The notes beneath the pieces are model-generated. The model was not told the origin of the DNA, made no database searches, and worked only from the letters and a program-made list of their open reading frames with translations. Source: Bradyrhizobium ottawaense (GTDB lineage Bacteria; Pseudomonadota; Alphaproteobacteria; Rhizobiales; Xanthobacteraceae). Taken from it: a DNA stretch of 64,000 bases. Shown piece after piece: positions 26,738-57,186 of the stretch (positions are counted from its first letter, which is position 1; each line of letters starts with the position of its first letter). The position numbers and the translations under genes were made by a program. The stretch is from positions 2,146,001-2,210,000 of the forward strand of contig NZ_CP029425.2 in NCBI RefSeq assembly GCF_002278135.3. The letters run 5' to 3'.

Positions 26738-26793
26738 GGATGGGACTTTGGCCGTGATAGGCTTGAATCCCCGAAAGAGAAGCGGGACCGGTC

Positions 26794-30296: not shown

Positions 30297-33083
30297 TCAG
30301 GCGCGCACGCGCGGGCGCGCGGGCCTGATGGCGCTTGCCGTGCGGGCCTCGATGACAGCGGCGGGAAAATCACGGAAAGCCTGCGTGACCGGCAGTTCGT
30401 GGCCCTCATGGCCTGTCGCGGCATAGCCCGTGATATCGACGGTCGCGTCAATTCCCTCCACCGCGGGCCATTCCCGGCCCGCTTGGGTAAACGGCGCGAA
30501 CTGGCGCCCGACCACGACGATCGCCGCAGCGCGGCCATGGCGCCGGGCGTAGGCAATGACATGGTCGGCATGGGCGCCGCGCACCGCCAGCGGCTGATAG
30601 TCGCCTTGAGCGAAGACGTCGGCGAGTTCATTGCGCAGCTTGAGAAGACGCCGTGTCCAGGCCAGCTTGATCAGGCCGTCGGGCCAGCTCTTGGTCAGGC
30701 CACGCCAATCCGGATCGTCCAGTGAACTCAGCGCCGCGTGCCGCGCGCCAAAATCGACCGGGCGACGGTTGTCGGGGTCGACCAGTGACAGGTCCCAGAA
30801 CTCGGTGCCCTGGTAGAAGTCGGGCACGCCGGGCAAGGTGGCCTTGAGGGTGAGCTGGCTCAGAGAATTCAAGGCGCCGAGCAGCGCCAGGCGCCGGGCC
30901 AGCGTTTGCAGTGAATCCAGGAATTCACCGGATAGTGCGGGATCGAGAATCTTGTCGATGAAGCTCTTGGCGCCGTTCTCATAGGCTTCATGCGGGTTGA
31001 GCCAGCTCGTCTCTTCCTTGCCCTCGCGCGCGGCCTTCAGCGCATAGGCCTGGATGCGCTCGACGAAGCCGGCATCGACCGGTCCCTGCAGCGGCCAGGC
31101 TCCGAGCAGGGTCTGGTAGAGCATGTATTCGAACGTCGCCGACGGCGCGCGGTAATTGCCATGGAGCGTGAGGTGTGGCGCGTTCAGCACCTTCCATCGC
31201 GCCACCGCGCTGGTCCATTCGCCGGGAATCTCGCTGATCGCCGCGATGCGCGCGCGGGCGTCCTCGCCGCGCTTGGTGTCGTGGGTGGCGGTCGCCGTCA
31301 TTCCCAATGGCCATTCCTTGGCGCGGGCCTGCATGGTCTCGTGGAAGGTGGAAATCGTGAGCCCGGTGCTGGCGGGATCGCCGCCGACCTCGTTCAGCGC
31401 GAGCAGCCGGTGGAATTGATAGAACGCGGTGTCCTCCAGCGACTTCGCCATCATCGGCCCGGTGAATTGCTGCACCTTCAGCGCGAAACGACGCACGCGC
31501 GGGGCGCTGTGCGGGGGGCGGCCGGGCTTGAGCAGGTCCATGGTCAGCGCGTCGCGCAGGAAGTCGAAGATGCCTTCGTCCGCGGCGAACCATTCCGCGC
31601 GGGCGCGCGCGATGGTGTCATCGATCAGCTTGCGGTCGGGCGCGGTCGGGCCGCTGTTGGTCAGATAGGTGCGGTACACCGGGAAATGCAGCACATAGAG
31701 CTCCAGCGCCTGCCGCAAACTGTCGGCGGAGAAATCGCGCGTCGAGTAATGCCCGTTGGCGATGCGCGCGAGCAGGCGGGTCAGCACGGTGAATTCGCTG
31801 GTGAGCAGCGTCTCCAGCACGCGCCGCTTGGCGTCCTTGACGTAAGGCGCAAGCCGCGGCGGCCGGTTGCTGACCTGCCGCCAGGTCTCGTCCAGCGCCC
31901 CCAGGCCCCCGGCCTCGACCAGCGCATGGGTGATGACGTTCATCCATTCATAGCCGGTGGTGCCCTGAACGCCGGCGAGGTGCGGCAGGCGTTCGTGCTC
32001 GCACAGGATCTTCTCGATCACGGTGTAGAACGGCTTTGTATTTCCTTGCGCGTCGCGCACCAGCCGGCGCAGCCGCTGGCAATATTGCGCGGGGTCGCGC
32101 AGGCCGTCGATGTGATCGAGCCGGATGCCCTGCAGCTTGCCGCTGGCGATGAGCTGCTTCACCAGCCGGTGCGTGGCGGCGAAGGTGCTCGCGTCCTCGA
32201 CGCGCAGACCTGCGAGCCCGTTGACGTCGAAGAAGCGGCGATAGTTAATATCGCTGGAGGCAAGCCGCCAGTGCCCGAGCTTGTAGTGCTGGCGCTCCAG
32301 CAGATGGTGCAGCGCCAGCGTCTGCGCGGGACGATCCTTGGCGGCACGATAGGCGGCAAGGCCGCGTGCGATCACCTCGGCAGCACCAGGGATCTCCCTG
32401 AGCTCGGTCTTGAACGCCGGTGCCTCCTTGCGATTGGGACGACGCAATCCCGTATAGCGCGCCGCAAGCGACAGCAGAAGTTCGCCGGCCTCCGTCTCGG
32501 CGGCATCCGCTTCCTTCACGATCATGCGCAGCATCTCGCCATAGCGCTCCGGCGCGACGGGCAGGCGATGCTCGAAATACCAGGCAGAGAAGCTTCCCTG
32601 GTCCGGATCGTAGCGTAGCTCGATGTCGCCGCGCTCGAGCGCCTCGCCATAGGACGCGCCGAGGATGGGCAGCAGCACACCGCCGCGGGCGCGATAGGCG
32701 AGCTGATCCCAGTCGATGTCGAAGGAGACCGCGTGGGGCGAGGCCTGGCCCCATTCCAGCACGTCGAGCCACCAGGGATTGTCGGCAAAATGCACGCCGA
32801 CATGGTTGGGTACGAAGTCGATGATGAGGCCGAGGTCGTGCTTGGTCAGCGCCTCGCTCAGCCGGGCGAAGCCGGCCTCGCCGCCAAGCTCCGGATTGAA
32901 CTGGCTGTGATCGACGGTGTCGTAGCCATGGGTCGAGCCCTTGCGCGCCTTCATCACCGGCGAGGCATAGAGATGCGTGATCCCCAGCGCCTTCAGATAG
33001 GGGACCACCGCGGCCGCCTTGTCGAAGTCGAAATTCGCGGTGAGCTGAAGCCGATAGGTCGCGAGCGGAATGGCGGGAGGCAT
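30297..33083 (-). CDS. treY: Malto-oligosyltrehalose synthase
   Basis: A 928-residue GH13 enzyme that isomerises the reducing-end alpha-1,4 bond of maltodextrins to alpha-1,1, giving maltooligosyl trehalose. It starts IPLATYRLQLTANFDFDKA; the conserved regions are FVPNHVGV, the nucleophile Asp in GIRLDHIDGLRDP, the acid Glu in YTVIEKILCEHERL, and TATHDTKRGEDARAR. The C-terminal PGVPDFYQGTE matches TreY. The ATG at 33083 follows the treZ stop by one base, so the two are coupled. It is the last gene of the glgE-treY operon and works with TreZ to release trehalose from glycogen. Length is slightly above average. Confidence 0.96.
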   Translation of the reverse strand: MPPAIPLATYRLQLTANFDFDKAAAVVPYLKALGITHLYASPVMKARKGSTHGYDTVDHSQFNPELGGEAGFARLSEALTKHDLGLIIDFVPNHVGVHFADNPWWLDVLEWGQASPHAVSFDIDWDQLAYRARGGVLLPILGASYGEALERGDIELRYDPDQGSFSAWYFEHRLPVAPERYGEMLRMIVKEADAAETEAGELLLSLAARYTGLRRPNRKEAPAFKTELREIPGAAEVIARGLAAYRAAKDRPAQTLALHHLLERQHYKLGHWRLASSDINYRRFFDVNGLAGLRVEDASTFAATHRLVKQLIASGKLQGIRLDHIDGLRDPAQYCQRLRRLVRDAQGNTKPFYTVIEKILCEHERLPHLAGVQGTTGYEWMNVITHALVEAGGLGALDETWRQVSNRPPRLAPYVKDAKRRVLETLLTSEFTVLTRLLARIANGHYSTRDFSADSLRQALELYVLHFPVYRTYLTNSGPTAPDRKLIDDTIARARAEWFAADEGIFDFLRDALTMDLLKPGRPPHSAPRVRRFALKVQQFTGPMMAKSLEDTAFYQFHRLLALNEVGGDPASTGLTISTFHETMQARAKEWPLGMTATATHDTKRGEDARARIAAISEIPGEWTSAVARWKVLNAPHLTLHGNYRAPSATFEYMLYQTLLGAWPLQGPVDAGFVERIQAYALKAAREGKEETSWLNPHEAYENGAKSFIDKILDPALSGEFLDSLQTLARRLALLGALNSLSQLTLKATLPGVPDFYQGTEFWDLSLVDPDNRRPVDFGARHAALSSLDDPDWRGLTKSWPDGLIKLAWTRRLLKLRNELADVFAQGDYQPLAVRGAHADHVIAYARRHGRAAAIVVVGRQFAPFTQAGREWPAVEGIDATVDITGYAATGHEGHELPVTQAFRDFPAAVIEARTASAIRPARPRVRA

Positions 33084-33084
33084 C

Positions 33085-34836
33085 CTAACCTCCGAGGCGC
33101 CAGACCACCGACCAGGGCGGAAGCCGGTCGCCGGTCTCGCCGCCCCAGATCGGCGTACCCGCGCTGACATTGGAGACGATCTCGTGGTCCGACAGGTTGG
33201 CGATCAGGCGCAGCACCGTGCCGTCGCCCATGCGCCAATGCGCGGTGAGCAGGCCGCTATCGGCCGCCTCGGCTTCGCCGAAACTCGCGCCCCTCAGCCG
33301 CGGCATGATCTCCTTGCGGCGAAGCGCAAGCAGCTCCCGGACCAGCGCGAGCCGCGCGTCCTGCTGCGGCGTGCGGCCGGTCCAGTCGAGCACGGCCGAT
33401 TGCAGCGTTGCCGGATCGAGCGGGTTGGGCACCTCGTCGCCGTACTTCTCGTAAGCCCAGGCATATTCCTGCTTACGCCCCTTGCGGACGGCATCGGCGA
33501 GTTCGCCGTGGAAATCGCAGAAGAACGGAAAAGGCGCCGTGGAGCCCCATTCCTCGCCCTGAAACAGCATCGGCACCATCGGCGCGAGCAGTGTCACTGC
33601 AAGCGCCGCTTCGATCTGCTGCGATGATGCCAGGCTCTCGAGCCGGTCGCCGAGCGGACGATTGCCGATCTGGTCGTGGTTTTGCAGGAAATTGACGAAG
33701 GTCGCCGGCGGCAGCTTGCCGCTCGGCTCGCCGCGCGGCTTCTTGCCCCAGAACTCCGAAACCTCGCCCTGGTAGACGAAGCCGGAGGCCAGCGCGCGGG
33801 CGAGATCGAGCCGTGGCGTTTGATAATCCGCGTAGTATCCGGCGAGCTCGCCGGTCAGCATCACGTGCCAGACGTGGTGATAATCGTCGTTCCACTGTCC
33901 CCGATATTTGCCGTTCGGCGGCTCCTGCGCCGCGTCGAGCAGGCTGGCGCGATTGTCGCCGTTCTCCAGCACGAGGTGGATGCGCCGCCCCGTGGCCTTG
34001 GCAAGCTCGCCGGCGGCGACGCTGAGGTCCTGCAGCATCGACTGCTCGCCGGGGATTGCCATGATGTGATTGGCGGCATCCAGCCTCAGGCCGTCGAAAC
34101 GGTAGTCGCTGAGCCAGGACAGCGCGTTCTCGACCGCGAATGCGCGCACCTGCGGCACGCGATAGTCGATCGCACTGCCCCAGGGCGTGTGAGCATCGGT
34201 GAAGAAGGTCGGCGCATAGCGGCCGAGATAATTCCCCTCGGGCCCGAAATGATTGTAGACGACGTCGAGGAATACCATCAGCCCGCGCAGATGCGCTTCG
34301 TCGATCAGCGTCTTCAGGTCTTCGGGCCGGCCATAGGCGCTGTCGGGCGCGTACCACAGCACGCCGTCATAGCCCCAGCCGCGGCGCCCGGCGAAATCGG
34401 CCAGCGGCATCAATTCCAGCGCGGTGATGCCCGTTGCGACAAGATGATCGAGCTTGTCGATCATGGCGCGGTAAGTGCCTTGGGAGGTGAAGGTGCCGAC
34501 ATGAGTCTCGATCAGCACCGTCTCTTCCCAGGGCCGGCCGCGCCAATCGCGCGCACGCCACGAAAAGGCGTCGTGATCGATCACCTCGCTCGGGCCGAAC
34601 ACATCCTCGGGCTGAAAGGCCGAGGCGGGATCGGGTACCTCGATCTCGTCGTCGATCCTGAACTTGTAGGGACTGCCGGCGGTGAGGCCGGAAATATCCG
34701 CCACGTACCAGCCATCCTGCCGGCGCTGCATCGCGTGTCTTCGGTCGAGCAGGAGGTCGACACGGCGAGCGCCAGGCGCCCACAGGCGGAACGACACGCC
34801 GTCCTTTGTCGGCCTCGCCCCGAAGGATGGCCTCAT
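33085..34836 (-). CDS. treZ: Malto-oligosyltrehalose trehalohydrolase
   Basis: A 583-residue GH13 enzyme cleaving trehalose off maltooligosyl trehalose. An N-terminal E-set/CBM48 domain (about 1-95: VSFRLWAPGARRVDLLL) precedes the barrel. Key elements are LIETHVGTFTSQGTY, VVYNHFGPEGNYL, nucleophile Asp in FDGLRLDAANHI, the Glu of IHLVLENGDN and FLQNHDQIGNR, all typical of TreZ. It ends ETGDRLPPWSVVWRL. Its ATG overlaps the glgX stop by four bases. Together with TreY it forms the TreYZ route from glycogen to trehalose. Confidence 0.96.
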   Translation of the reverse strand: MRPSFGARPTKDGVSFRLWAPGARRVDLLLDRRHAMQRRQDGWYVADISGLTAGSPYKFRIDDEIEVPDPASAFQPEDVFGPSEVIDHDAFSWRARDWRGRPWEETVLIETHVGTFTSQGTYRAMIDKLDHLVATGITALELMPLADFAGRRGWGYDGVLWYAPDSAYGRPEDLKTLIDEAHLRGLMVFLDVVYNHFGPEGNYLGRYAPTFFTDAHTPWGSAIDYRVPQVRAFAVENALSWLSDYRFDGLRLDAANHIMAIPGEQSMLQDLSVAAGELAKATGRRIHLVLENGDNRASLLDAAQEPPNGKYRGQWNDDYHHVWHVMLTGELAGYYADYQTPRLDLARALASGFVYQGEVSEFWGKKPRGEPSGKLPPATFVNFLQNHDQIGNRPLGDRLESLASSQQIEAALAVTLLAPMVPMLFQGEEWGSTAPFPFFCDFHGELADAVRKGRKQEYAWAYEKYGDEVPNPLDPATLQSAVLDWTGRTPQQDARLALVRELLALRRKEIMPRLRGASFGEAEAADSGLLTAHWRMGDGTVLRLIANLSDHEIVSNVSAGTPIWGGETGDRLPPWSVVWRLGG

Positions 34837-36911
34837 AGCGCCCCCGCGAAGGCGAGCACGGAGCGCGGCGGCGCCTTGCTATCGCTCCCGGGCGGGAACT
34901 CGACCGTATTCAGCTTGGCATCGGTCGTGTTCAAGATCTGTTGCCAGCTCTTGTATTCGGGCATTTTGGGCAATTTGAATGCGATCTCTTCGGGGGCGGC
35001 GTTCAGTACGATAAAGATCGCGGCCCCACCCGGTTCCATCGGGCCCATCACATAGGAGAGGAATCTTCCCTCCGGGAATTTCCAGTCGTTCTCCGTCATC
35101 TCGTCACCCGCAGGTGTCAGCCACAATGTGCCGTACGACACGCCGTCTGCGGGGCGGCCGTCGAGCCAGCGATGGCTGCGAAGTTGCGAGAACCGGCGGC
35201 GGATGTCGGCGAGATGGCCGACGAAATCGACCATGTCGTCGCCCTCTTTGCCGAGATTGTCCCAGCCGACCCAGCCGATCTCGTTGTCCTGGCAATAGGC
35301 GTTGTTGTTGCCGGATTGCGAGTTGCCGACCTCGTCGCCGGCGAGGATCAGCGGAACACCCTGCGCCAGCATCAGACAGGCCAGCACGTTCTTGCGAAGC
35401 TGGCGGCGCAGGGCGATGATATCAGGATCGTCGGTCGGACCCTCGACACCGCAATTGTTGCTGTGGTTGTCGTTGGAGCCGTCGCGGTTGTCCTCGCCGT
35501 TGGCCTCGTTGTGCTTCTCGTTGTAGCTGAAGAGGTCGGCGAGCGTGAAGCCGTCGTGGACGGTGATGTGATTGATGCTGGCGCGCGGCCGCCGTCCGTC
35601 ATGGTTGAACAGGTCGGAGGATGCCGTCATCCGACTGGAGATGTCGCCGATTAGGCTGCCTTCGCCGCTCCAGTAGCGGCGCATGGCGCTGCGATAGCGA
35701 TCATTCCATTCCGACCATTGCGAGGGGAATGCGCCGACCTGGTAACCGCCGAGGCCAAGGTCCCAGGGTTCGGCGACGAGCTTGACCGTCGCGAGCACCG
35801 GATCCTGCCGGATCGCGGTCAAGAACGAGATGCCGCGATCATAACCGTTCGGTCCGCGCGCGAGCGTGGTGGCGAGGTCGAAGCGGAAGCCGTCGACGTG
35901 GCAGACCTCGACCCAGTAGCGCAAGGAATCCATCACCATCTGCAGCACGCGCGGATGGGTGAGATTGACCGACGAGCCGCAACCGGTGAAGTCGTCGTAA
36001 TAGCGCGGGTTCTCGCGGTTGAGCCAGTAATAGGAGGCGTTGTCGATGCCGCGGTAGCACAGCGTCGGACCAAGATGGTTGCCTTCGGCGGTGTGGTTGT
36101 AGACGACGTCGAGCATCACCTCGATGCCGGCATCGTGCAGGCGCGCCACCGTGGTGCGGAAGGAGTCGAGCGCGTTGTCCTGGGCGTAGCGCAGCTCCGG
36201 CGCGAAGAACGAGAGCGAGTTGTAGCCCCAGTAATTGGCGAGCTTCTTCTCCACCAGGATGCGGTCGTCGACGAAGCTGTGCACCGGCAGCAGCTCGACC
36301 GTGGTGACGCCGAGCTTCTTCAGGTGCTCGATCATCGCCGGCGAAGACAGCCCGCCATAGGTGCCCCGCAGGTTCGGTGGCACGTCGTCGCGCTTCTGGG
36401 TCAAACCCTTGACGTGAGCCTCGTAGATGACGGTGTCTTCCCATGGGATGTTGGGACGGATCTCGCGGCGGCCCCAGTTGAAGGTCTCGTCGACCACGAC
36501 GGCCTTGGGCATGCCGCGGGCATTGTCGCGCCGGTCGAAGGAGAGATCCTCGCGCGCGCTTCCGGTGCGGTAGGCAAAATGCGCATCGCTCCAGACCAGG
36601 CGTCCCGCGAGCCGCTTGGCATAGGGATCGAGCAGCAGCTTGTTCGCGTTGAAGCGGTGGCCGTGCTCAGGCTCGTAGGGGCCGTGCACGCGATAGCCGT
36701 AGAGCTGGCCGGGCGAGACGTCGTTGAGATAGCCGTGCCAGACATCCTCGGTTCTTTCAGGCAGCTCGATGCGTTCGAGCTCGCGGCGGCCTTGCGCGTC
36801 GAACAGGCAGAGTTCCACCTTCTGTGCGTTCGCGGAGAACAGCGCGAAATTGGTGCCGCGTCCGTCCCAGCTTGCGCCGAGGCGTGCAGGCGATCCAGCA
36901 GTCAGGCGCAT
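34833..36911 (-). CDS. glgX: Glycogen debranching enzyme (isoamylase type)
   Basis: A 692-residue GH13 debrancher that hydrolyses alpha-1,6 branches of limit dextrins. An N-terminal CBM48 (about 5-100, LGASWDGRGTNFALFSANA) is followed by the barrel: YEAHVKGLTQ, DVVYNHTAEGNHLGPTL, nucleophile in VDGFRFDLATTLAR, acid Glu in LVAEPWDLG, and NHITVHDGFTLADL. The NEANGEDNRDGSNDNHS loop is characteristic of GlgX/TreX. It provides linear dextrins for TreY/TreZ and MalQ. Three bases separate it from glgB and it overlaps treZ by four. Normal length. Confidence 0.96.
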   Translation of the reverse strand: MRLTAGSPARLGASWDGRGTNFALFSANAQKVELCLFDAQGRRELERIELPERTEDVWHGYLNDVSPGQLYGYRVHGPYEPEHGHRFNANKLLLDPYAKRLAGRLVWSDAHFAYRTGSAREDLSFDRRDNARGMPKAVVVDETFNWGRREIRPNIPWEDTVIYEAHVKGLTQKRDDVPPNLRGTYGGLSSPAMIEHLKKLGVTTVELLPVHSFVDDRILVEKKLANYWGYNSLSFFAPELRYAQDNALDSFRTTVARLHDAGIEVMLDVVYNHTAEGNHLGPTLCYRGIDNASYYWLNRENPRYYDDFTGCGSSVNLTHPRVLQMVMDSLRYWVEVCHVDGFRFDLATTLARGPNGYDRGISFLTAIRQDPVLATVKLVAEPWDLGLGGYQVGAFPSQWSEWNDRYRSAMRRYWSGEGSLIGDISSRMTASSDLFNHDGRRPRASINHITVHDGFTLADLFSYNEKHNEANGEDNRDGSNDNHSNNCGVEGPTDDPDIIALRRQLRKNVLACLMLAQGVPLILAGDEVGNSQSGNNNAYCQDNEIGWVGWDNLGKEGDDMVDFVGHLADIRRRFSQLRSHRWLDGRPADGVSYGTLWLTPAGDEMTENDWKFPEGRFLSYVMGPMEPGGAAIFIVLNAAPEEIAFKLPKMPEYKSWQQILNTTDAKLNTVEFPPGSDSKAPPRSVLAFAGAL

Positions 36912-36914
36912 GTG

Positions 36915-39062
36915 TCAGCTTTCCGGAACGAGGAAGATCGCGGCGAGCGGCGGAATGGTGAGGCGGAGCTCGGGCGCCTTGCCTTCAACGGCATGAACCT
37001 CGCCGATGTTCCCGACATTGCTGCCGCCATAATGGGCGGAGTCCGAATTGAACACTTCCTTCCATTTGCCGGCAAAGGGCACGCGAACGCGATAGTTGCG
37101 ATAGACATTGGGAGAGAAGTTGATGATGACGAGACACCGCGCCTGCTCGTCGAATCCCTTGCGCAGCCAGGCGAACACGTTGCGGTTGGCATCATCCGTG
37201 ATCAGCCATTCGAAGCCGGCCTGGTCGCAGTCCATCTGGTGCAGCGCCGGCACCGCGCGGTAGAGCCGGTTGAGGTCGCGGATCAGTGACTGGATGCCGG
37301 AATGATACTTGTATTCGAGCAGGTGCCAGTCGAGCGACTGGTCGTGATTCCATTCGCGGCTCTGGGCGATTTCCGCGCCCATGAACAACAGCTTCTTGCC
37401 GGGATGGCCGAACATGAAACTGTAATAGGCGCGCAAATTCGCAAAGCGCTGCCACTCGTCGCCGGGCATGCGGCCGAGGATCGAGCGCTTGCCGTGCACG
37501 ACCTCGTCATGCGAGAGCGGCAGGATGAAGTTTTCCGAGAAGGCGTAGTGCAGGCCGAACAGGATGTCGCCGTGATGGTGCTTGCGATGGATCGGATCCT
37601 TGCTGATGTAGTTCAGCGTGTCGTGCATCCAGCCCATGTTCCACTTGTAGCCGAAGCCGAGCCCGCCGAATTCGACCGGGCGTGAGACCTGCGGCCAGGC
37701 CGTGGATTCCTCGGCCGCCGTGGTCGCCTGCGGGAAGCGCGCGAATACTTCCGTGTTGAAGCGGCGCAGGAAGTTGATCGCCTCGATGTTTTCGCGGCCG
37801 CCATATTGGTTCGGGATCCAGGCGCCGGGCGGCCGGCTGTAGTCGAGATAGAGCATGGACGCGACGGCATCGACGCGTAAGCCGTCAATGGCATAACGCT
37901 CCATCCAGAACAGCGCGTTCGACACCAGGAAGTTCGTCACTTCGGTGCGGCCGTAATTATAGATCAAGGTGCCCCAGTCGAGATGGCGGCCCTGGAGCGG
38001 GTTGGCGTGCTCGTAGAGCGCGGTGCCGTCGAAGCTGCCGAGCCCGTGGGGATCGTCGGGGAAGTGACCGGGCACCCAATCGAGCAGCACGCCGACGCCT
38101 TCGCGGTGGCAGGCATCGACGAGGGCGGCAAAATGCTCCGGCGTGCCGAAGCGGCTGGTCGGCGCATAGAGGCCGGTCGGCTGATAGCCCCAGGAGCCAT
38201 CGAAGGGATGCTCGCTCACGGGCAGGAATTCGAGATGGGTGAAGCCCATGTCGCGGGCATAGGCCGGCAACTGTTCGGCCAGCTCGCGATAGGTCAGCCA
38301 TTCATCGCCGTTCTTGCGACGCCACGAGCCGAGATGGACCTCGTAGATCGACATCGGCGCCGACAGCGCGTTGATGCCGTCAGGCGCCGGGCGCGGACGC
38401 GCCAGATCCGCCTCGTCGAACACGATGGAGGCCGTCTTCGGCCGGACTTCGCTGGCAAAGGCCATCGGGTCTGATTTCAGCGGAAGCAGATGGCCGTGCG
38501 GCCCGATGATCTCGAACTTGTAGTGATCGCCGGCTTTGGCATGCGGAATGAACAATTCCCAATACCCGGCGCCGCGCACCCGCATCGGATGGCGACGTCC
38601 GTCCCAGAAATTGAAATCGCCGACCACGGAAACGCGGCGTGCGTTCGGCGCCAGCACCACGAAGCCGATGCCGTCGATGCCCTCGAGCCGCATCGGATGC
38701 GCCCCGAGCTTGTCGTAAAGGCGCTGATCGGTGCCTTCGCCCAGCAAATAGAGGTCGAAATCGGTCAGGATCGGCGGAAAGCGGTAGGCGTCCTCGAACT
38801 CGACGACGTTGCCGCCGAATTTTGCGCGCAGCTGATAGTGCTTCGAGCCATTGGGCAGGGCCCCGATGAACAGGCCGGAATCGTGCACGCGGTCGAGCGG
38901 AGCGACTTCGCCACGCTCGCCGACTGCCTCGACATTTGAGGCCTCGGGGAGAAAGGCGCGCACCACGCTTTTACCGCCCTCGGGATGCAGCCCGAGATAG
39001 TGGAAGGGGTCGGAGTGGCGGCCCTCGATGATCGCATAGGCCTCGGCAGGCAGTTTAGGCAT
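36915..39062 (-). CDS. glgB: 1,4-alpha-glucan branching enzyme
   Basis: A 715-residue GH13 branching enzyme forming alpha-1,6 bonds in glycogen. An N-terminal N1/CBM48 pair ([18 protein letters not shown], then [20 protein letters not shown]) precedes the catalytic barrel: [17 protein letters not shown], nucleophile Asp in [17 protein letters not shown], acid Glu in [10 protein letters not shown] and [12 protein letters not shown]. The end has [18 protein letters not shown] and AIFLVP. I chose ATG 39062 (GGGAG site, overlap of eight bases with treS) over a GTG at 39080. It supplies the branching step of the GlgE-type or classical glycogen pathway. Confidence 0.97.
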
Positions 39063-42000
39063 GGGCTTCGCTCCCGGCACTGGACAGAATGCGAAGCAGT
39101 CCGGTCAGCGGCGCATGGAGCCCCTCAGGCCGGTTGGACAGCTCGTACTCTACTTCATCGAAGGCGTGATCAAGCAGGAAAAACCTTAACAGGCCTTCTG
39201 CGGATTGCCGATCCTCCGGCCACAGCCGTCGATCGGTCACGGCCTCGCGATAGGCGGACAGGAAGGTTGCGGCGGTTCGCTCGCGCCATTCGTCAAGCGC
39301 TGCGGTGATCCGGCCCTGCTCGTCGGAGGCACCCGTGAGTGCGCGGCTCAGCGCCGCGTTAACCGAAAGATCGATCGAGCGGATCAGGCCGGCGACGTCG
39401 CGCGCGGCAGGCAGCTTGCGCCGCTTGTCGGCCAGCGGCACACGGGGATTGCCGTCAAAGTCGATGATGAAGATATCGTCCTTCACGATCAGAGTCTGCC
39501 CGAGGCGGAAGTCGCCATGATGACGGATGTTCAGCCCGCCGATCCCGGAAGGCAATAGCGCATTCAGGGTGGCGGGCAGGGACGCGCGCACGGCGGCGAG
39601 CTGGTCGATCAGCGGCCGGTCCGCCTCCCGCATGCCGTCGCGGCTGTCGGCCAGCCGTTCGAAAATCCGCTCGGCCCGCGCCTTGAGGTCGGACACGAGG
39701 CGTTTGACGTACGCAGAGCCGATCGGCTCCGGGGCGAGATCGTCCGGCTTTGCCGCCGCCAGGGCAACATGCAACTCGCCGAGCCGCCGGCCGATCTGCG
39801 CGATGAAGTGCAGATAAGGCGCTTGCTCCTGGGTCTCGCGCGGCGCTTCGCCTGCCGACAACACGCGTTGCTCGTCGATATAGCGATCGAGATAACCCGT
39901 GGTCACGGTCCAGCCGTCACCCTGGTTCTCGACATAGGCATGGAGCACGCCGAGCGTGCTGCGCTGATCGCCTTCGACCAGCTCGACGCTGCCGAGCAAC
40001 GCCGGCGTATTGGCAAAGCGCGCGACCTCGGTGAGATAATGGCCGATCTCGATCTCGGGGTTGATGCCGCTTTCGAGCTGGCGATAGAGCTTGGCGACGT
40101 ACTGGTTGTCGACCAGCGCGGTGCTGTTCGATTGCTCGATCGCGCGGATGCGTTCGGGCTCCTTGATGGTGTAATCGGCGAAGCGGCTGGTCGCCTTGAA
40201 CTCCAGCCGCAGATTGTTCTCTTCCACCACCAGGTTCTGCGACAGGTTGCGCAGGAACAGGCCGATGAAGATCTGATCGGTCGCCACGTCGAGCAGCGTG
40301 CCCTCGCGCGCGCCCTGGCGCACGGCGGCGAGCGCCTTCGGGTTGAACCGCTCGCGGTCGAAGCGCACCCACTCGATCTGCATCGGAAGCACGTAACGCG
40401 GCGCAGCGTCCTGGTCCGGCCTCTCAAAGAACGCGATCCAGGGCCTGTTGTCGCCGATGTCGCAGAACGGCACCGCCGAGGTCAGCGCGGTCTTGATGTG
40501 CTTGGGATTGTGCTCGGGATACCACCGCGTCCGCGACAAGAATCCCGGCAGCACGTCGCGCTCGAACACGCCGCGCTCGCGGGCGAGCGACACCCAGTTC
40601 GAGTTCACCGGCACCACCAGCGTCTCGAACTCCGGCACCGCGCGCGGCGTCACCGGCTCGGACTTGTCGCGCTCCTGGAGCTGGAACCAGTAGAAGCCGT
40701 AGGGCCCCAGCGTGATCATGTAGGGCAGTTCGCCGATCGCGGGGAAGCGCGTCCGTCCCAGCATCTCCTGCGGGATGCGGTCCTTCCACGGCGACAGGTC
40801 GAGCTCGGTCGCTTGCGCTGCGCGCGACAAATTGGCGACGCAGAGGATCACCTCGTCGCGGTATTGGCGGACATAGGCGAGCACGGCGCGATTGGCCGGG
40901 CGGATGAAGGTCATGGTGCCGCGGCCGAAAGCGAGCGTCGACTTGCGCACCGAGATCAGCCGCTTGGTGGCGCTGAGCAACGACGACAGGCTGCGCGACT
41001 GCGCCTCCACATTCACCGATTCGTAGCCGTAGACGGGATCCATGATCAGCGGCGCGTAGAGGCGGGCCGGGTCGCAGCGTGAGAAGCCGCCGTTGCGGTC
41101 AGGGCTCCACTGCATCGGCGTGCGGACGCCGTTGCGGTCGCCGAGATAGATGTTGTCGCCCATCCCGATCTCGTCGCCGTAATAGATGATCGGCGTGCCG
41201 GGGAAGGACAGCAGCAGCGAGTTCATCAGCTCGATCTTGCGCCGGTCATTGTCCATCAGCGGCGCAAGGCGCCTGCGGATGCCGACATTGATGCGGGCAC
41301 GGGGATCGTTGGCGTAGGTGGTCCAGAGATAATCGCGCTCGACGTCGGTGACCATCTCCAGCGTCAGCTCGTCATGGTTGCGCAGGAACAGCGCCCATTG
41401 GCAGCTTGCCGGAATGTCCGGCGTCTGGCGCAGAATGTCGGTGATCGGAAAGCGGTCCTCCTGCGCGATCGCCATGTAGATGCGCGGCATCAGCGGGAAG
41501 TGGTAGGCCATGTGGCACTCGTCGCCGCGGCCGAAATATTCCTGCACGTCCTCCGGCCATTGATTGGCCTCGGCGAGCAGCAGCTTGCCCTTGGAGTAGG
41601 AATCCAGCTCGTGGCGCAGGCGCTTGATGATCGCATGCGTCTCGGGGAGGTTTTCGTTGTTGGTGCCGTCGCGTTCGCACAGATAGGGAATGGCGTCGAG
41701 CCGGAAGCCGTCGACGCCGGCGTCCAGCCAGCGCTTCATCACCTGGATGAGCGCGCTGACCACGCGCGGATTGTCGAAATTGAGATCGGGCTGGTGCGAG
41801 AAGAAGCGGTGCCAGTAGAACGCGCCGGCCTCGTGATCCCAGGTCCAGTTCGACTTTTCGGTGTCGGTGAAGATGATGCGCGTGCCCTGGTATTTCTGGT
41901 CGGTATCGCTCCAGACATACCAGTTGCGGGCGCTGGAGCCGGGATGGCTGCGGCGCGCGCGCTTGAACCATTTGTGCTGGTCCGAGGTGTGGTTGACGAC

Positions 42001-42348
42001 GAGTTCGGTGATGACGCGCAGGCCGCGCTTCTGCGCTTCCTGGATGAAGCGCTTGAAGTCCTTCATCGTCCCGAAATCGGGATTGACCGAGCCGTAGTCG
42101 GCGATGTCGTAGCCGTCGTCGCGGCCGGGCGAAGGGTAGAACGGCAAAAGCCACAGCGCGGTGACGCCGAGCTCCTGGAGATAGGGCAGCTTCTCGGTCA
42201 GCCCGGCGAAATCGCCGATCCCGTCATTGTTGCTGTCGGCGAAGGCCTTGACGTGGAGCTGATAGATAATGGCGTCCTTGTACCAGAGCTCATCCACGAT
42301 CTCAGCAGCCTCAAGCTTCTTGGTGTCGACGGAAGACAGAACATTCAT
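39055..42348 (-). CDS. treS: Fused trehalose synthase-maltokinase
   Basis: A 1097-residue fusion. The TreS part (about 1-560) is a GH13 trehalose/maltose isomerase: [14 protein letters not shown], nucleophile in [16 protein letters not shown], Glu in [26 protein letters not shown], all intact. The C-terminal maltokinase (about 610-1097) phosphorylates maltose to maltose-1-phosphate, the GlgE substrate. Its catalytic loop HGDFRLGQ (Asp946) and metal region IDFDGNP (Asp963/Asp965) keep the core Asp residues but differ from the common HGDxHLGQ and DFEGEP forms. The ATG at 42348 lies 11 bases after glgE. The fusion is common in proteobacteria. Confidence 0.95.
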
Positions 42349-42359: not shown

Positions 42360-44306
42360 TTACGCCAGGCAGCGGAACAAGAGCGCCGGATCGCGGTCGG
42401 GATCGATACGCAACCTGATCCCGCCCCATTCGATGCGGGACTGTTCGCCGGTGAGAAGGTTTTCGAGTGTCGTCACATGGTGCCGCTGCCCGCCGGCGTC
42501 AACGGTGACGTCGCCGAGCGGCAGCCAGCACTCGCGCAAATGGCCCGAAAGCGCGATCACGATGAGGACGGTGTTGGCCGGCTCGGCCGCCTCCTTGACG
42601 AAGGCGATCGTCTCGCCGTCCTCAATGCCGAGAAACCGCAAATTTGCCGTTTGCTGGAGCGCGGCATTGTCGTTGCGGATGCGGTTGAGACCGGCAATGT
42701 AGGACTTGATGTTGCCGGGCCGGTCCCAGTCGCGTTGCCGGATCTGGTATTTCTCGGAATCCAGATATTCCTCGCGACCGGGCATCGCCTCGTGTTCCAG
42801 CAGCTCGAAGCCGCTGTAAACGCCGTAGCTGCCCGACAATGTCGCCGCCAGCGCAACGCGCGACTTGAACGCCCAGGCCTCTCCGCCCTGGAGATGATAG
42901 GGCAGCAGGTCGGGCGTGTTGACGAACAGGTTCGGGCGATAGAAGTCGCGCTCGGGATAGCGCGTCAGCTCGCCGAGATATTGCTCCAGCTCCCACTTTG
43001 TCGTGCGCCAGGGGAAATAGGTGAAGGACTGCGCAAAGCCGAGCTTGGCGAGGCCCTTCATCAGCTTCGGCCGGGCAAACGTCTTGGAGAACAGGATCAC
43101 CTCGGGATGCCGGCGGCGGATGTCGCGGATCAGCCAGTCCCAGAATGCAAGCGGCGCGGTGTCGTGGTTGTCGATGGCGAAGATGGTGACGCCTTGGTCG
43201 ATCCAGAACAGCATGGCATCGCGAAACCCGTTCCACAGCCCGGCCCTGTCGACGGAGTCGAAATCGGGGATCACGATGTCCGAATAGGGTCCATCCGCGG
43301 TCCGCACCGAGCGGTCCGGCCGCCATTTGAACCATTCCGGATGCAGCGTCAGCCAGGGATGGTCGGGCGAGCATTGCACGGCGAAATCGAGCGCGAGCTC
43401 GAGACCGTATTCCAGGCAGGTCGCAACCAGCGCGCGGAAATCCTCGATGGTGCCGAGATCGGGATGCAGCGCATCGTGGCCGCCCTCGGCGGCTCCGATC
43501 GCGTAGGGCGAGCCGGGCTCGCCCTCGGTTGCCACCGGCGCATTGTTGCGGCCCTTGCGACGGCTGCGGCCGATCGGCTGGATCGGCGTCAAATAGAGCA
43601 CGTCAAAACCCATCGCGGCGATATCGGGCACGCGGGCGATGCAGTCGCGCAGCGTGCCGTGCTGGCCGGCGACCTGGCTCTGGCTGCGCGGCATCATCTG
43701 ATACCAGGCGCCGAAGCGCGCCTTGTCGCGGTCGACGGTCAGCGGGAAAGGCTGCGAGCGGGTCAGGTCTGGCCGGGACTGGCTCTCTGCCATGGCATTG
43801 CCGAGCTCGGCCGCAAGCAGCGAGGCGACGTCGCCGGTCTGAAGATAATCCTCGCACTGTCTGACGATGACCGCCGCCGCGTCCTGTCGCGCGCCATGCG
43901 CCTTGGTCAGGAGCCCGGCCCCCTCGATCGCATCGAGGCTGACATCGGCACCCATTCGCTGCTTGCGCGCGACTCCGTGCGACCAGGTGGCGAACTCGTC
44001 GGTCCAGGCCTCGATCGCGTAGACATGTTGGCCGGGCTCAACGGGTGTGAATCCGCCGGACCAGCGGTCATTGCCCCGATGGTCCATCGGCTCGCGCTTC
44101 CAGTCGCGGTCCTGCTCGCGGCGCCAGATCAGCGCGGCCCCGACCACGGCATCGCCATCGCGGTAGACATCGGCCCACACCTCCATGCGCTCACCCGCGA
44201 TCCGCTTCACCGCGAAGCGGCCGGCGTCGATTGCGGGATAGACGTCCTCGATCAGGAAAGCGCTGCCGGCTGCGGCACTTTCGACAGTTTGAATTGTCTT
44301 GTTCAC
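42360..44306 (-). CDS. glgE: GlgE-like maltosyltransferase with altered catalytic residues
   Basis: A 648-residue protein of the GlgE family (alpha-1,4-glucan:maltose-1-phosphate maltosyltransferase). Family marks remain: [59 protein letters not shown] and [15 protein letters not shown]. The nucleophile region reads [10 protein letters not shown] instead of FRVDNPHTKP: the Asp stays (codon 43170-43172), but the usual Arg is Ala (43176-43178). The acid/base Glu, 29 residues later, is Lys (AAG, 43083-43085) in FSKTFARP instead of (L/F)xEAFTRP. It may be inactive or altered. The start is uncertain; GTG 44306 fits the family length but lacks a clear ribosome site. Confidence 0.85.
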
Positions 44307-44337: not shown

Positions 44338-44432
44338 GTTTCCCTTGTCGGGAACCTACGCTTGGTACCTATATAGAAAGCCGGTTGTGTGTCATTAGTT
44401 CCCTCGGGAACGGGTGGCGCGGTCTGCGAGTT
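44338..44432. promoter_or_regulatory. Divergent glgE/malQ control region with palindromic GGAAC boxes
   Basis: GTTCCCTCGGGAAC (44398-44411) is a perfect palindrome made of two back-to-back GGAAC boxes. On the plus strand GGAAC (44407-44411), 17 bases, AGTT (44429-44432) points to malQ. On the minus strand GGAAC (44398-44402), 17 bases, CTTT (44377-44380) points to glgE and is a weaker match. A second, imperfect copy GTTTCCC-N5-GGGAAC lies at about 44338-44355. These could be EcfG promoters or a repressor operator. Confidence 0.45.
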
Positions 44433-44510: not shown

Positions 44511-46472
44511 ATGGATCTTTTAGCTCAAGCCCGGATCAAGGGCGTTCAATCCGAATTCATCGACGCCCTCGGAAAGCTGCGGGTCACCGATCCCGTGGCC
44601 CTCAAATCCATTCTCGATGCCCTGCCGGAGAAGCGGGTTTACCGCTTCGTCAGCGGGCCGGTCGTGGTCCGCGCCTTGGGGCATCCGCGCACCGAATTGG
44701 CGACGATCGGCGCGCCGCCGCTGAAGTGGAAATTGGCCGCAAAGGGGGAGGTGATCGCCGAGGGCGAGACGCGCGAGCCCGTGATCCCCTGGCCTGCCGG
44801 CCTGCCGCTCGGCTATCACCGGTTGACACTGACCGATGCCGAAGGTGTGACGGAAGAGGTGCCGATGATCGTGGCGCCCGAGCGCGCCTTCGGCGGCGAT
44901 TTCGATCGCGGCTGGCTGCTTGCCGTGCAGCTCTACAGCGTCCGTTCGGACCGCAATTGGGGCATCGGCGATTTCACCGATCTCGCCGATCTCGTCCGGC
45001 TCGCAAAGCAGCTGGGGGCTGACGGTGTCGGACTCAATCCGCTGCATGTCCTGTTCGACGACCACCCGGCCGATTGCAGTCCCTACTCGCCGAATAGCCG
45101 GCTGTTCCTCAATCCGCTCTATATCGACGTCGAAGCCATTCCCGAATTCTCCGCAGACCTCGTGCCCGACGCGGCCGCGACCGCGGCCCGTCTGCGCCAA
45201 GGCGATCGCGTCCCCTATGCCGACATGGCGGCGTTGAAATGGCTGGGCCTGCGCGCCGCCTTTGACAGCTTCGTGACGACGGCAAGCGCGGCGCGCCGCA
45301 AGGCGTTCGACGCCTTCCGCGCCGCCCGCGCGCCGCTATTGTCCCGCTTCGCCTGCTTCGAGGTGCTGCGCCATCGTTTCACCGCGCCATGGTGGGAATG
45401 GCCGGTTGAATGGCAGCAACCGGACGAGGCGAAATGCGCCAGCTTGCGCAATGGGGCTGACAAGCGCGAGGTCGAGTTCGTCGAATTCGTGCAATGGACC
45501 GCAGATAGCCAGCTGCATGCTGCCAAGGAGCTTGCCAGCCAGCTCGGCATGCGCGTCGGGCTCTATCTCGACGTCGCCGTCGGCGTGCAGTCCAACGGCT
45601 TCGATGCCTGGAACGAGCAGATGGCGATCTCCCGTCATCTCGCCGTCGGCGCGCCGCCCGACGTGCTCAACACCATCGGCCAGGACTGGGGCCTTGCCGG
45701 CTTCAACGCCGGCGGCCTGGAAGCGCAATCCTTCGTGCCGTTCGCCGACATGCTGGCGGCCTCGATGCGCCATGCCGGCGCGATCAGGCTTGATCACGTG
45801 CTGGGCCTGAAGCGGCTTTATCTCGTGCCCCGCGGCTTCAAGCCGGATAACGGCGCCTATGTGCAGATGCCGTTCGAGGCGCTGCTTGGCGCCGTGGCGC
45901 GCGAGAGCGCGGCCCACAAATGCATCGTGATCGGCGAGGACCTCGGCACCGTGCCGGAAGGTTTTCGCGAGACCATGCAGGATTTCGGCATCTGGTCCTA
46001 TCTCGTCATGATGTTCGAGCGCGACGATGCCGGCCATTTCCGCAATGTCGACCATTACCGGCCCAACGCGCTGGTCACGCTGAACACGCATGACCTGTCG
46101 ACCTATGCCGGCTGGCGCTCATTCGGCGACCTGAAGATGAAGCGCTCGCTCGGGCTCGATCCCGGCGAGAACGACCAGGCGCGCTGGGATGCGCTCGGCA
46201 GGCTCGACGAGATCCTGCGCCAGAACGGCATTCGTGCCAACGACCTCTATTCGGTGCTCGCCTTCCTGTCGCGCACGCCGTCGCGGCTGCTCGCGGTCTC
46301 CATGGAGGATCTGCTCGGCGTGATCGACCAGCCCAACATTCCCGGCACGATCGACGAACATCCGAACTGGCGCCAGCGCCTGCCTGTTGCGCTCGACAAG
46401 ATCGCCGCGAAGGTCGATCTCACGGCCTTGCGAGCAGCGACGCGGGAACGTTCGTTGAATGGCGGGAGTTGA
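44511..46472 (+). CDS. malQ: 4-alpha-glucanotransferase (amylomaltase)
   Basis: A 653-residue GH77 enzyme transferring maltosyl units between 1,4-glucans and releasing glucose. An N-terminal accessory domain (about 1-135) precedes the barrel starting WLLAVQLYSVRSDRNWGIGDF. The substrate-binding DCSPYSPNSRLFLNPLYID, nucleophile Asp in GAIRLDHVLGLKRLY, acid Glu in VIGEDLGTVPEGF and NTHDLSTYAG are all present. Extended MalQ forms of about 650-700 residues are usual in proteobacteria. The ribosome site is poor. Divergent from the glycogen operon, followed after 45 bases by a GH15 gene; it would process dextrins from GlgX. Confidence 0.95.
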   Translation: MDLLAQARIKGVQSEFIDALGKLRVTDPVALKSILDALPEKRVYRFVSGPVVVRALGHPRTELATIGAPPLKWKLAAKGEVIAEGETREPVIPWPAGLPLGYHRLTLTDAEGVTEEVPMIVAPERAFGGDFDRGWLLAVQLYSVRSDRNWGIGDFTDLADLVRLAKQLGADGVGLNPLHVLFDDHPADCSPYSPNSRLFLNPLYIDVEAIPEFSADLVPDAAATAARLRQGDRVPYADMAALKWLGLRAAFDSFVTTASAARRKAFDAFRAARAPLLSRFACFEVLRHRFTAPWWEWPVEWQQPDEAKCASLRNGADKREVEFVEFVQWTADSQLHAAKELASQLGMRVGLYLDVAVGVQSNGFDAWNEQMAISRHLAVGAPPDVLNTIGQDWGLAGFNAGGLEAQSFVPFADMLAASMRHAGAIRLDHVLGLKRLYLVPRGFKPDNGAYVQMPFEALLGAVARESAAHKCIVIGEDLGTVPEGFRETMQDFGIWSYLVMMFERDDAGHFRNVDHYRPNALVTLNTHDLSTYAGWRSFGDLKMKRSLGLDPGENDQARWDALGRLDEILRQNGIRANDLYSVLAFLSRTPSRLLAVSMEDLLGVIDQPNIPGTIDEHPNWRQRLPVALDKIAAKVDLTALRAATRERSLNGGS

Positions 46473-53069: not shown

Positions 53070-55919
53070 TTAGTTCAGCGCGTCGTTGAGCGCCGCATTG
53101 AGTGCCGCGAGGCCCTTCTTGAGCCCGCCCTTGAGGTGGACGCGCAGCGCGCGCCGGCCGCGTTCGGTGAGCACGTCGAAATCGCCGCGTGCCTGCGCCG
53201 CCTTGATCACGCCGAAGCTCGCCTTCTGGCCGGGTACCGCCAGGTCCTTGGCATCATCAGCGGTGATCTGGAGGAACACGCCGCTGTCGGGTCCGCCCTT
53301 GTAGGCCTGCCCCGTGGAGTGCAGGAAGCGCGGTCCGAACTCGGCACAGGTTGCGACCTGCCGCTTCTCACGGACTTCGAGCCGCATGGCCTGGAGCGCG
53401 TCGATGGTCAGCTTGTCCCGCGCGACATAGCCGAGCAGGGCGACGTAATCGCCGTCGCCGGAGCGCGACAGATGCGCCTTCAGCCACGAGGTGAGGTCGC
53501 CGTTGGCGCCGGCGGCGCGCAGCGCGGTGGCGTTGGCCTCGTCGGTGTAGAGATCGGCCTCATCGGTGCTGACCACCGGCTGCTCTTCCGGCAACGCGCC
53601 GGTCTTCTCGAACGACGCGGTAAGCTCGCGGGTCTTGATCTTGGCGGCTTCCACGTCCGGCTGGTCGAACGGGTTGATGCCGAGGACCGAGCCCGCCACA
53701 GCGGTCGCCATCTCGAAGCGGAAGAACTCCTGGCCGAGATGGTCGATCGACTTCATCACGATGCGCACCACGGGATGGCCGGCCGCCTCGATCGCGGCAA
53801 GCTTGGAGTCGTGGGCGGCGTCCGCTTCGCCTTCGACGCGGATGTCGATGAAGAACCGGTCGTTGCCGTAGACGGAAGGGTCGCCCAGCGGCTCGCCCTC
53901 GATCGGGATCAGGCCCTTGCCCTCCTTGCCGGTCGATTCCGCGATGAGCTGCTCGGCCCAAGCTCCGAAATCGGCGATCTTCTTCGACGACAGGATCGTC
54001 ACCTTGTCGCGGCCTTCGAGGCCGGCGAGGCCGATGGCAAGGCCAAGCTGCACGCCCGGGTTTTCGCTCGGCGGCACGTCCGGTCCGCAGGAGCGCGCCA
54101 TGGCGAGCGCGTGCTTGACGAAGGTCTTGACGTCGATGCCGGCGGTCGCCGCCGGCACGAGGCCGAACGGCGACAGCACGGAATAGCGTCCGCCGATCGA
54201 GGGCTCGCCATGGAAGATGCGGGCGTAGTTCAGCTTCTTGGCGGCCTTCTCCAGCGATGAGCCGGGATCGGTCACCGCGATGAAGCGGAAGCCCGTCTTC
54301 GCCTTCGGGCCGAGCGCTTGCGCAACGCGCTCATGGAAATAGTCCTTCATCGCGTTCGGCTCGGTGGTGCCGCCCGACTTGCTGGAGACGATGAACACGG
54401 TGTTGGCGATGTCGATCCGGGCCTCCATCGCCCGCACCTGCGCCGGATCGGTGGAATCCAGCACGTGCAATTTTGGGAAGCCGGGCTTTTTCCCGAAAGT
54501 CTCGGCCAGCACCTCCGGCCCGAGGCTCGATCCGCCCATGCCGAGCACGACGGCGTCGGAGAACTTTTGCCCCTTCACGCGGCCGGCATAGTCCTCGTAA
54601 TCGGCGACGTCGGCCTTGGCGGCGCTGTCGAGCCAGCCGAGCCATTTGTCCTCGTCCGTGCCGGTCCAGACCGACTTGTCGCGCTGCCACAGCCTGCGGA
54701 TCTTGGCCGATGCACGCCATTCCTCCGTGCTCTTGGCCATCGCCTTGCCGAGCCCGTCGCCGAGCGAGAGAGACTGGCGGTCGAGCGCGGGCCCAAGCAC
54801 CGTGGCGCGCTTGTGGGCGACGGCGCCGTAGAGCTTGTCGGCGGCGTCCGCGAACAGCTTGACGCCGTCCTTGACGAGCTCTTCGGTGATGGCGTCGAGC
54901 GAGACGCCGGAGCGCTCCAGCTCTTCCAGCACTCGGTAGGCGTCCTCGACGTTCTCTTCCAGGCTGTCGCGCGGCTTGCCATGGTCGCGGAACGCATCCA
55001 GCGTTGCCGGCGGCACGGTGTTGATGGTGTCGGGGCCGATCAATTCTTCGACATAGAGGACGTCGCTGTAATCCTTGTTCTTGGTGCCGGTGGAGGCCCA
55101 CAGCATCCGCTGCGGTTTGGCGCCCTTGGCGGCGAGCTTGTCCCAGCGGGGACCCGAGAACAGGCGCTTGTAGTCCCGGTAGGCGACCTTGGCGTTGGCG
55201 ATCGCGACCTTGCCCTTGAGCGCGGCGAGCCGCTCCTTCTCGGACGGATCGTTGGCGCGGGCGATCTTGTCGTCGAGCTGCTTGTCGACCACGGAGTCGA
55301 TACGGCTGACGAAGAAGCTGGCCACGCTCGCGACATGCGAGGGATCGCCGCCGCCTGCGACGTATTTTTCGAGGCCGGCGATGTAGGCTTCGGCCACCTG
55401 GAGGTAGACCGCCTTGGAGAACAGCAGCGTGATGTTGATGCTGATGCCGTCGCCGATCAGCTGCTCGATCGCCGGCAGGCCCTCCGGCGTCGCCGGCACC
55501 TTCACCATCAGGTTCTTGCGGCCAACGTCCTTCCAGAGCCGGCGCGCCTCAGTGACCGTGCCTGATGTGTCCATGGCGAGATAGGGCGAGACCTCCAGGC
55601 TGACATAGCCGTCACCGCCCTTGAGGCGGTCATAGACCGGGCGCAGCACGTCGGCCGCGTTCTGGATGTCTTCGATCGCGACGGCCTCGAACAGGTCGGC
55701 CACGGTCCGGTCGCCGCGCTTCAGCGCTTTGCCGATCGGGGCGTCATATTCGTCCGAGCTGCCGATCGCCTTCTCGAAGATCGAGGGGTTGGAGGTGACG
55801 CCCTTGACGCCGTCGGTCTCGATCAGCCGCTTCAGGTCGCCCTTGGCGATGAAGCCGCGGGCCAGGAAGTCCAGCCAGACGGCTTGTCCGTGCTTTTCCA
55901 GTTCTTTGACGGGATTCAT
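53070..55919 (-). CDS. tal-pgi: Bifunctional transaldolase/phosphoglucose isomerase
   Basis: A 949-residue fusion. The N-terminal transaldolase (about 1-360) has [13 protein letters not shown] and the Schiff-base Lys in [14 protein letters not shown]. The C-terminal glucose-6-phosphate isomerase (about 380-949) has [35 protein letters not shown] and a SIS fold. The fused protein links the non-oxidative pentose phosphate branch with fructose-6-phosphate/glucose-6-phosphate exchange and is known in rhizobia. First gene of a minus-strand operon (tal-pgi, gnd, zwf, pgl, gntK, HAD). A GGAGAT site lies 13 bases upstream of the ATG. Confidence 0.96.
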
Positions 55920-56005
55920 GATGCTTATTTATCTCCAAGCCTGCGGGCGAGGGGTTTCCGCGCCGGTCCTGACGCGCTATCCTCTAGCTTACATGCTCCC
56001 GGGAG

Positions 56006-56030
56006 GGAACCAATCAAGGGTACAGGCGTC
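56006..56030 (+). promoter_or_regulatory. Possible EcfG-type promoter upstream of the membrane protein gene
   Basis: GGAAC (56006-56010), a 16-base spacer, then CGTC (56027-56030): three of four bases of the -10. The leader to the chosen start at 56245 would be long (about 200 bases). The rest of 55920-56244 carries only the tal-pgi leader and no gene. Confidence 0.3.
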
Positions 56031-56244
56031 ATACCCTCCAGTGTAACTCCGTCGCGATCATGGCGATCCGGGCGGCAGTAGCGGTTGTTGCGTAAAAAGT
56101 CGTTGGCCGAAGGTTCGGCCGGGTCTCCTTGCGTAACGCCGGCCGCTTCGTCGTCAGCCAGTGGCTGCGTGGAGTGCCATCAGCGGATTCCGGTCCGTCT
56201 GGTGCATCGTGGTTCGGCCGCGAATGGCCATGCTGGGGAAGAGC

Positions 56245-56889: not shown

Positions 56890-57126
56890 GATCGCCGCTC
56901 GCCGATCGCTATGCTGCAACGCCGGATGGTCTCATCCCCGGTAACGCCCGGATGTTGCGACCGAGTGACATTTTGTGGAAATGAGCCAATATAGACAGAG
57001 ATTCGCACAAAATACGGGCAGGTGCCTGTTCGTAACTCAACGAGTGCCTACGTTGTGCGTTGCGTCGTGTCTGCACCCGGGTGTCCAATGATCGTCATGT
57101 GCTCACGCTGATTCGAAACGGCCTGA

Positions 57127-57152
57127 GGAACGGTCCGGCAACTGCTTTCGTT
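57127..57152 (+). promoter_or_regulatory. EcfG-type general stress promoter of the prkA operon
   Basis: A perfect GGAAC (57127-57131), a 17-base spacer, and CGTT (57149-57152), exactly the alphaproteobacterial EcfG consensus. Start of transcription would be near 57160, with a leader of about 27 bases to the ATG at 57187. The rest of 56890-57126 is AT-richer than average but shows no gene. Confidence 0.8.
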
Positions 57153-57186
57153 TCAGCTTGTAGCGGAACTCACGCGGAGAGGGATC

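Follow-up and report, generated by a model that had tools for sequence, protein, structure and literature searches.

Many Bradyrhizobium genomes carry a form of the maltosyltransferase GlgE in which the catalytic acid/base and the grip on phosphate have been lost in step with key residues of the kinase that makes its substrate; this is what seems to be new here, and the protein probably has a new job. We describe it from the window, a 64,000-nucleotide stretch of the Bradyrhizobium ottawaense contig NZ_CP029425.2, and from related loci and genomes. This K-type GlgE, defined by lysine at residue 408, is a real, conserved variant: its residue losses are linked to those of the maltokinase, its fold and the promoter-like element upstream are conserved, and the gene bears the mark of purifying selection. 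Loss of the known GlgE function is well supported by these sequence comparisons. No description of a K-type GlgE was found among the open-access literature matches listed.

Source records often name the K-type proteins maltosyltransferase or starch synthase (maltosyl-transferring), and many Bradyrhizobium genomes, including those of soybean symbionts, are probably credited with a glycogen route that they cannot run. Genus-wide, the near-perfect coupling between maltokinase residues and GlgE state is in keeping with the known toxicity of maltose 1-phosphate, and it provides a natural experiment in the dismantling of a two-step branch. With a K-type protein retained behind a stress-type promoter, the role of GlgE without maltose 1-phosphate becomes directly testable in a genetically tractable symbiont.

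The GlgE homologue and its operon

The glgE reading frame starts with GTG at position 44306 and ends with TAA at 42360–42362, encoding 648 residues (Table 1). The product has the N/S domain, the GH13 barrel and the whole-length fold of GlgE, and its best PDB folds are all GlgE. In the predicted model, pLDDT falls below 50 at residues 1–14, 464–475 and 499–523, and therefore no side-chain geometry is claimed. In the HMMER alignment, Asp379 (codon GAC, 43170–43172), Ala377 (GCC, 43176–43178) and Lys408 correspond to Asp394, Arg392 and Glu423 of Streptomyces coelicolor GlgE, and Asp379 and Lys408 are 29 residues apart. The reading frame and this alignment bear out all the residues, codons, spacing and equivalences given in a first-pass annotation made from the letters alone. 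Thus, the nucleophile is present, the acid/base Glu423 is replaced, and Arg392 is gone together with one phosphate contact, N352, with Y357 and N395 retained. These three phosphate contacts appear with the conserved maltose contacts in PMC4663749; their S. coelicolor numbers were derived by offset from the M. thermoresistibile ones. Mutation of Glu423 abolishes the activity of S. coelicolor GlgE (PMC5076824).

Table 1. Features of the glgE operon and its surroundings in the window
Feature	Coordinates	Strand	Basis or remark
MalQ 4-alpha-glucanotransferase, divergent neighbour	44511..46472	+	
Sigma-EcfG-like promoter GGAAC-N17-CTTT, 96 bp upstream of GTG	44375..44402	-	comparable elements upstream of K-, H- and E-type genes
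K-type GlgE homologue, acid/base Glu replaced by Lys	42360..44306	-	648 aa; ORF, alignment, fold
Donor lid shortened to ADGPY (residues 337-341; canonical AENPPKKY), without its phosphate-side loop	43284..43298	-	alignment
Nucleophile segment, residues 377-384 AIDNHDTA (canonical RVDNPHTK)	43155..43178	-	Asp379 kept; Arg, Pro, His, Lys replaced
Codon AAG for Lys408, which aligns with acid/base Glu423 of S. coelicolor	43083..43085	-	HMMER alignment
Fused TreS-maltokinase; TreS motifs intact, maltokinase altered	39055..42348	-	motif reading
Arg948 in HGDFRLGQ, at invariant maltose-pocket His307	39505..39507	-	alignment
Maltokinase residues 1061-1064 HAFD (canonical KAFY), Lys413/Tyr416 equivalents lost	39157..39168	-	alignment; PMC4306142
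GlgB branching enzyme, catalytic motifs intact	36915..39080	-	motif reading
GlgX debranching enzyme	34833..36911	-	
TreZ	33085..34836	-	
TreY	30297..33170	-	

In 115 of 119 K-type loci the donor lid has lost three residues (canonical AENPPKKYEDI against ADGPYSDI, the gap falling between Pro and Tyr) and N352 is also replaced. The earlier statement that the rest of the fold is kept thus stands for the fold, which matches GlgE, but not for the donor site with its deleted lid. Compared with canonical GlgE, the K-type proteins have changed or lost R392, N352, H397, K399, E423 and the lid loop, whereas the maltose contacts apart from Arg392 and Glu423 (K264, S279, Q324, D359, D480, K534 and Y535) and the acceptor-site residues W448 and R449 are retained in all or most of them. 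To judge by residues, the sugar contacts are retained, and phosphate handling and acid/base catalysis appear to be lost.

A broader comparison (119 K-type and 57 E-type loci) yielded 17 positions that are at least 95% fixed in the E-type and below 5% in the K-type. They include R377A, P381H, H382D, K384A, F405L, L406F, A409T and, by definition of the K-type, E408K. None of the 17 turned into a fixed Glu, which rules out another Glu at the acid/base place. At the active-site motifs only one new carboxylate is nearly fixed, Asp382, three residues past the nucleophile. Its S. coelicolor equivalent, His397, touches the +1 sugar, and W448/R449 form the acceptor site (PMC5076824). Among 109 distinct K-type locus proteins, N380, H381, D382 and Asp466 are each invariant, and Asp379 is kept in 107, the two exceptions having open frames. 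The 118 K-type database proteins have Asp382 in 116 cases, and Asp379 likewise in 116. A lower conservation of the nucleophile than of the new pocket is therefore seen in the loci but not in the database proteins. The new pocket is not universal, since P0117, the most divergent K-type protein seen (72% identity), has the Lys but reads DSQQGV from the nucleophile onward. Asp382 is thus Gln in P0117, and it is Glu in P0100.

TreS, GlgB and MalQ retain their motifs where these were read, and 216 of 219 loci gave a treS match. Among distinct upstream regions, those of the K-type carry an element GGAAC-N15-18-[CT][GT]TT within 260 bp upstream in 105 of 109 cases, those of the H-type in 12 of 13 and those of the E-type in 36 of 42. 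Its distance from the start is mostly about 96 bp, and the base-shuffled rate is 0.010; the upstream region of the one decayed locus (G082) gave no match. The element resembles the sigma-EcfG consensus GGAAC-N16-CGTT (PMC7083833), but its -10 part is imperfect. In B. diazoefficiens, treS (blr6767) belongs to the sigma-EcfG regulon, and a treS mutant is reported to have more trehalose and less maltose (PMC8092242); we infer that blr6767 is the treS copy of this operon. A second TreS (L222; 43% identity), without a maltokinase half, is encoded elsewhere in the window's genome. Read by eye, the window also contains, at 25791–29481 and 53070–59130, Ku and LigD-like end-joining genes, a transaldolase/glucose-6-phosphate isomerase fusion and a PrkA-like kinase.

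Distribution and origin of the K-type

Lys408 is found in all 160 loci that are at least 75.2% identical to the query, and Glu in all 59 loci at or below 70.2% identity (219 loci in total). A protein search gave the same picture: 118 of 120 proteins have Lys, and the two with Glu are 71% identical. The Ala/Lys state is thus shared by other Bradyrhizobium, as the first-pass annotation had proposed to check, and its doubt about a recent knock-out proved justified. With Lys clade-wide in both loci and proteins, a sequencing error is ruled out as well. A further 84 loci were read from the family and order (82 from other genera, two from Bradyrhizobium); all 84 have the Arg/Asp/Glu/Asp residues and the canonical lid, and none of them shows a convergent acid/base loss.

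Within the genus, 146 genomes were compared. An intact K-type gene is present in 76 and a broken one in one (L217, G077), interrupted near residue 185. The E-type with canonical lid occurs in 22 genomes (once split over contigs, three times at a separate stand-alone locus), and one further E-type copy is broken. The H-type, with a retained Glu423 and the lid AEHPPQRW or near it, occurs in 14 genomes; there is one decayed copy, and 31 genomes have no detected glgE. An otherwise E-type protein, L135, has VKDPHT as its nucleophile segment (Asp to Lys, Asn to Asp). The window's genome has one GlgE and one maltokinase; a second glgE was looked for there and not found, which answers a further question of the first-pass annotation and rules out a compensating canonical copy in this genome. 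Among the matches listed for the 146-genome sample, no K-type genome has a second long glgE match.

In an 83-row tree built with the trait columns excluded, the K-type, represented by 25 of the 96 distinct rows then in hand, forms one clade (SH-aLRT 100) with a single state change. This clade is nested inside Bradyrhizobium and is sister to the H-type, the fork joining the two having a support of 94. Horizontal replacement is not favoured, given this position within the genus and the nearly constant neighbour malQ, for which 172 of the first 176 loci gave a match. Since the K clade represents a single evolutionary event, its associations have no independent replicates inside the clade.

The maltokinase and the GlgC-GlgA route

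The maltokinase Mak needs Ser136 and Asn137, its maltose pocket is lined by His307, and changing Lys413, Tyr416 or Tyr420 practically abolishes activity (PMC4306142). In the window maltokinase, the residues at His307, Lys413, Tyr416 and Tyr420 are Arg, His, Asp and Tyr, respectively, so that three of these four maltose-pocket residues differ from those of Mak. All 95 distinct K-type fusions have Arg at His307, Asp at Glu324 and a replacement at Tyr416; Lys413 is retained in five and Tyr420 in 91. The ATP/Mg residues K149, D305 and D322 are retained. The operon, described earlier as intact, is therefore so as DNA but not in function, its maltokinase half having lost key residues in step with GlgE.

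This linkage extends over the genus. We scored ten functional residues (S136, N137, K149, D305, H307, D322, E324, K413, Y416, Y420) after dropping rows shorter than 460 aa and duplicates. All ten are present in 23 of 23 maltokinases beside canonical GlgE, comprising 20 of 20 fusions and three of three stand-alone proteins beside the second stand-alone GlgE type, and in one of 144 otherwise. The latter include 0/95 of the K-type, 0/14 of the H-type, 0/1 of the decayed copy, 0/29 from genomes without detected glgE and 0/4 fusions in genomes with glgE elsewhere. The single exception (G109, L218) is an intact stand-alone maltokinase adjoining a canonical glgE with a frame break, which may have arisen recently or reflect a sequencing slip. 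No full maltokinase was recovered from two of the 31 glgE-less genomes (none in G034, a split one in G089). The groups lost different residues (PR, PD, CS, AD, PH, or His307/Lys413/Tyr416), and so the maltokinase losses probably happened more than once.

The other 29 glgE-less Bradyrhizobium (L311–L334, L340–L344) keep TreS-maltokinase, in 28 cases fused into a protein of about 1,100 aa, with three to six of the ten functional residues changed per genome in several ways. The second, basal stand-alone glgE type (L173–L175, L336) lies at another locus, next to an intact stand-alone maltokinase of its own, in genomes with an altered TreS-maltokinase fusion.

In M. tuberculosis, maltose 1-phosphate is toxic if GlgE cannot use it (PMC4526890, PMC4663749), which is the simplest reason for a coupled loss of the kinase and GlgE. 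The maltose-1-phosphate branch as a whole looks dismantled. GlgC passes its family threshold in 75 of the 76 K-type genomes (in the exception, G054, it is in two pieces), 14 of 14 H-type, four of 22 canonical and seven of 31 glgE-less genomes; GlgA is present in 143 of 146. The GlgE-made glucan may have been replaced by the classical GlgC-GlgA route, a suggestion that rests on few evolutionary changes: GlgC changed only four times on 44 tips, so its Fisher p-value is no independent test.

Retention and possible roles of the K-type protein

Median pairwise dN/dS (Nei-Gojobori, dS of 0.15–1.2; 93 K-type, 19 E-type and 13 H-type sequences, the pairs not being independent) is low in the K-type, which answers another check proposed in the first-pass annotation. 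The ratio is 0.153 for the whole K-type glgE versus 0.122 for the canonical gene, 0.113 versus 0.095 for the GH13 part, 0.215 versus 0.168 for the maltokinase, and 0.038 versus 0.057 for TreS. The old maltokinase sites 413 and 416 each vary among seven residues and GlgE residues 380–382 are near-fixed, so the kinase site looks released, whereas the GlgE pocket looks constrained. With an open frame in 76 of 77 K-type copies of the genus sample, the protein combines loss of a catalytic residue with purifying selection, as expected of a pseudoenzyme under selection. To judge from these ratios, selection still keeps it, and the early opinion that this is not simple decay agrees with them, with the open frames and with the conserved promoter element.

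We lean towards the reading that the K-type is a pseudo-maltosyltransferase, most likely non-catalytic, kept as a maltose- or alpha-glucan-binding partner or sensor, its inactivity, ligand and scaffold or sensor role being inferred. In one Bradyrhizobium lineage with the GlgC-GlgA route, the maltokinase and GlgE steps would both have been dismantled and TreS, GlgB, GlgX, TreZ, TreY and MalQ retained. GlgE would no longer bind phosphate or carry out acid/base catalysis, but would retain its fold, most maltose/glucan contacts and its place in the operon, downstream of a general-stress-type promoter. It may bind maltose or the non-reducing ends of alpha-1,4-glucans without turnover, in a changed pocket with His381, Asp382 and Lys408, and would tether or tune TreS, GlgB, GlgX and TreYZ, or sense TreS-made maltose, in trehalose-glycogen turnover. 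A scaffold or sensor was already among the early suggestions and is plausible.

Canonical GlgE also disproportionates maltooligosaccharides without maltose 1-phosphate, as a side activity (PMC11046441). The ancestor could have lived on this activity before the K-type change, and the H-type may still do so. A tentative possibility is that the pocket was re-founded around the nearly invariant His381-Asp382/Lys408 for a new ligand or for a phosphate-free maltose or maltooligosaccharide reaction, linking TreS trehalose breakdown with the pool of GlgC-GlgA glycogen under the control of the general stress response. The main rival of the partner-or-sensor reading is a rebuilt active site with Asp379 as nucleophile, Asp382 as a relocated acid/base tuned by Lys408, and an unphosphorylated maltosyl donor. 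The conservation of Asp379, His381, Asp382 and Asp466 in the locus proteins, the +1 sugar contact of the residue equivalent to Asp382 and the phosphate-free side activity are in its favour, and with the three Asp residues in place some chemistry may still be possible. We nevertheless find a rebuilt site rather unlikely: the nucleophile is lost in two locus and two database proteins, Asp382 is replaced in P0117 and P0100, and the K-type also lacks the conserved Arg two residues ahead of the nucleophile. We also know of no retaining GH13 enzyme with Lys as acid/base, which counts against it.

It is improbable that GlgE is a purely structural partner that only stabilises TreS-maltokinase or GlgB around a ligand-free pocket. 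The near-constant presence of treS and the retention of a fused maltokinase without its maltose residues would suit such a role, but the sugar-contact residues of the pocket stay conserved, and TreS needs no GlgE in general, since the 29 glgE-less genomes above keep their altered maltokinase. Slow decay of an unneeded gene, to which the broken copy in G077 and the 31 genomes without glgE could point, is very unlikely in view of the low dN/dS and the open frames; the truly decayed copy in G082 sits on a branch of 0.5, whereas the median end branch is 0.043, and it lacks the promoter match. Hardly credible is a still working maltose-1-phosphate maltosyltransferase with Lys as an unusual acid/base, its retained maltosyl site and nucleophile, and a conceivable GlgM-type synthase as a source of maltose 1-phosphate besides the maltokinase surveyed, being set against the deleted phosphate lid, the lost maltokinase residues and the need for Glu423 in S. 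coelicolor. A phosphate-dependent enzyme is the least likely of the options first proposed, because the phosphate site and the maltokinase that would provide maltose 1-phosphate have both lost key residues.

Among known systems, GlgE itself (S. coelicolor 3zss, M. thermoresistibile 5cgm) shares with the K-type the full-length fold at about 40% identity, the maltose subsites, the Trp448/Arg449 acceptor platform, the nucleophile Asp and the third Asp; the K-type differs in the acid/base (Glu to Lys), Arg392 to Ala, His397 to Asp and the deleted phosphate-side lid. Similarly, the maltokinases Mak/Pep2 (4o7o, 4u94) match the fused domain in sequence, in the HGD and DF motifs and in the ATP Lys, but the K-type domain differs at His307, Glu324 and Tyr416 throughout (each 95/95) and keeps Lys413 in 5/95. 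The sister H-type (L159–L172) resembles the K-type in having GlgC, a changed phosphate-side lid (with Tyr357 to Trp) and a maltokinase altered at other residues, its P-loop Ser-Asn being Pro-His (Pro-Asn in one). Unlike the K-type, it retains Glu423, Arg392 and Asp394, and it is possibly a phosphate-free disproportionating enzyme. The plant isoamylase ISA2 is a pseudoenzyme partner that retains the GH13 fold, has lost catalytic residues and acts beside active glucan enzymes. ISA2-like partners are paralogues, whereas the K-type GlgE, as a putative partner, replaces the only copy.
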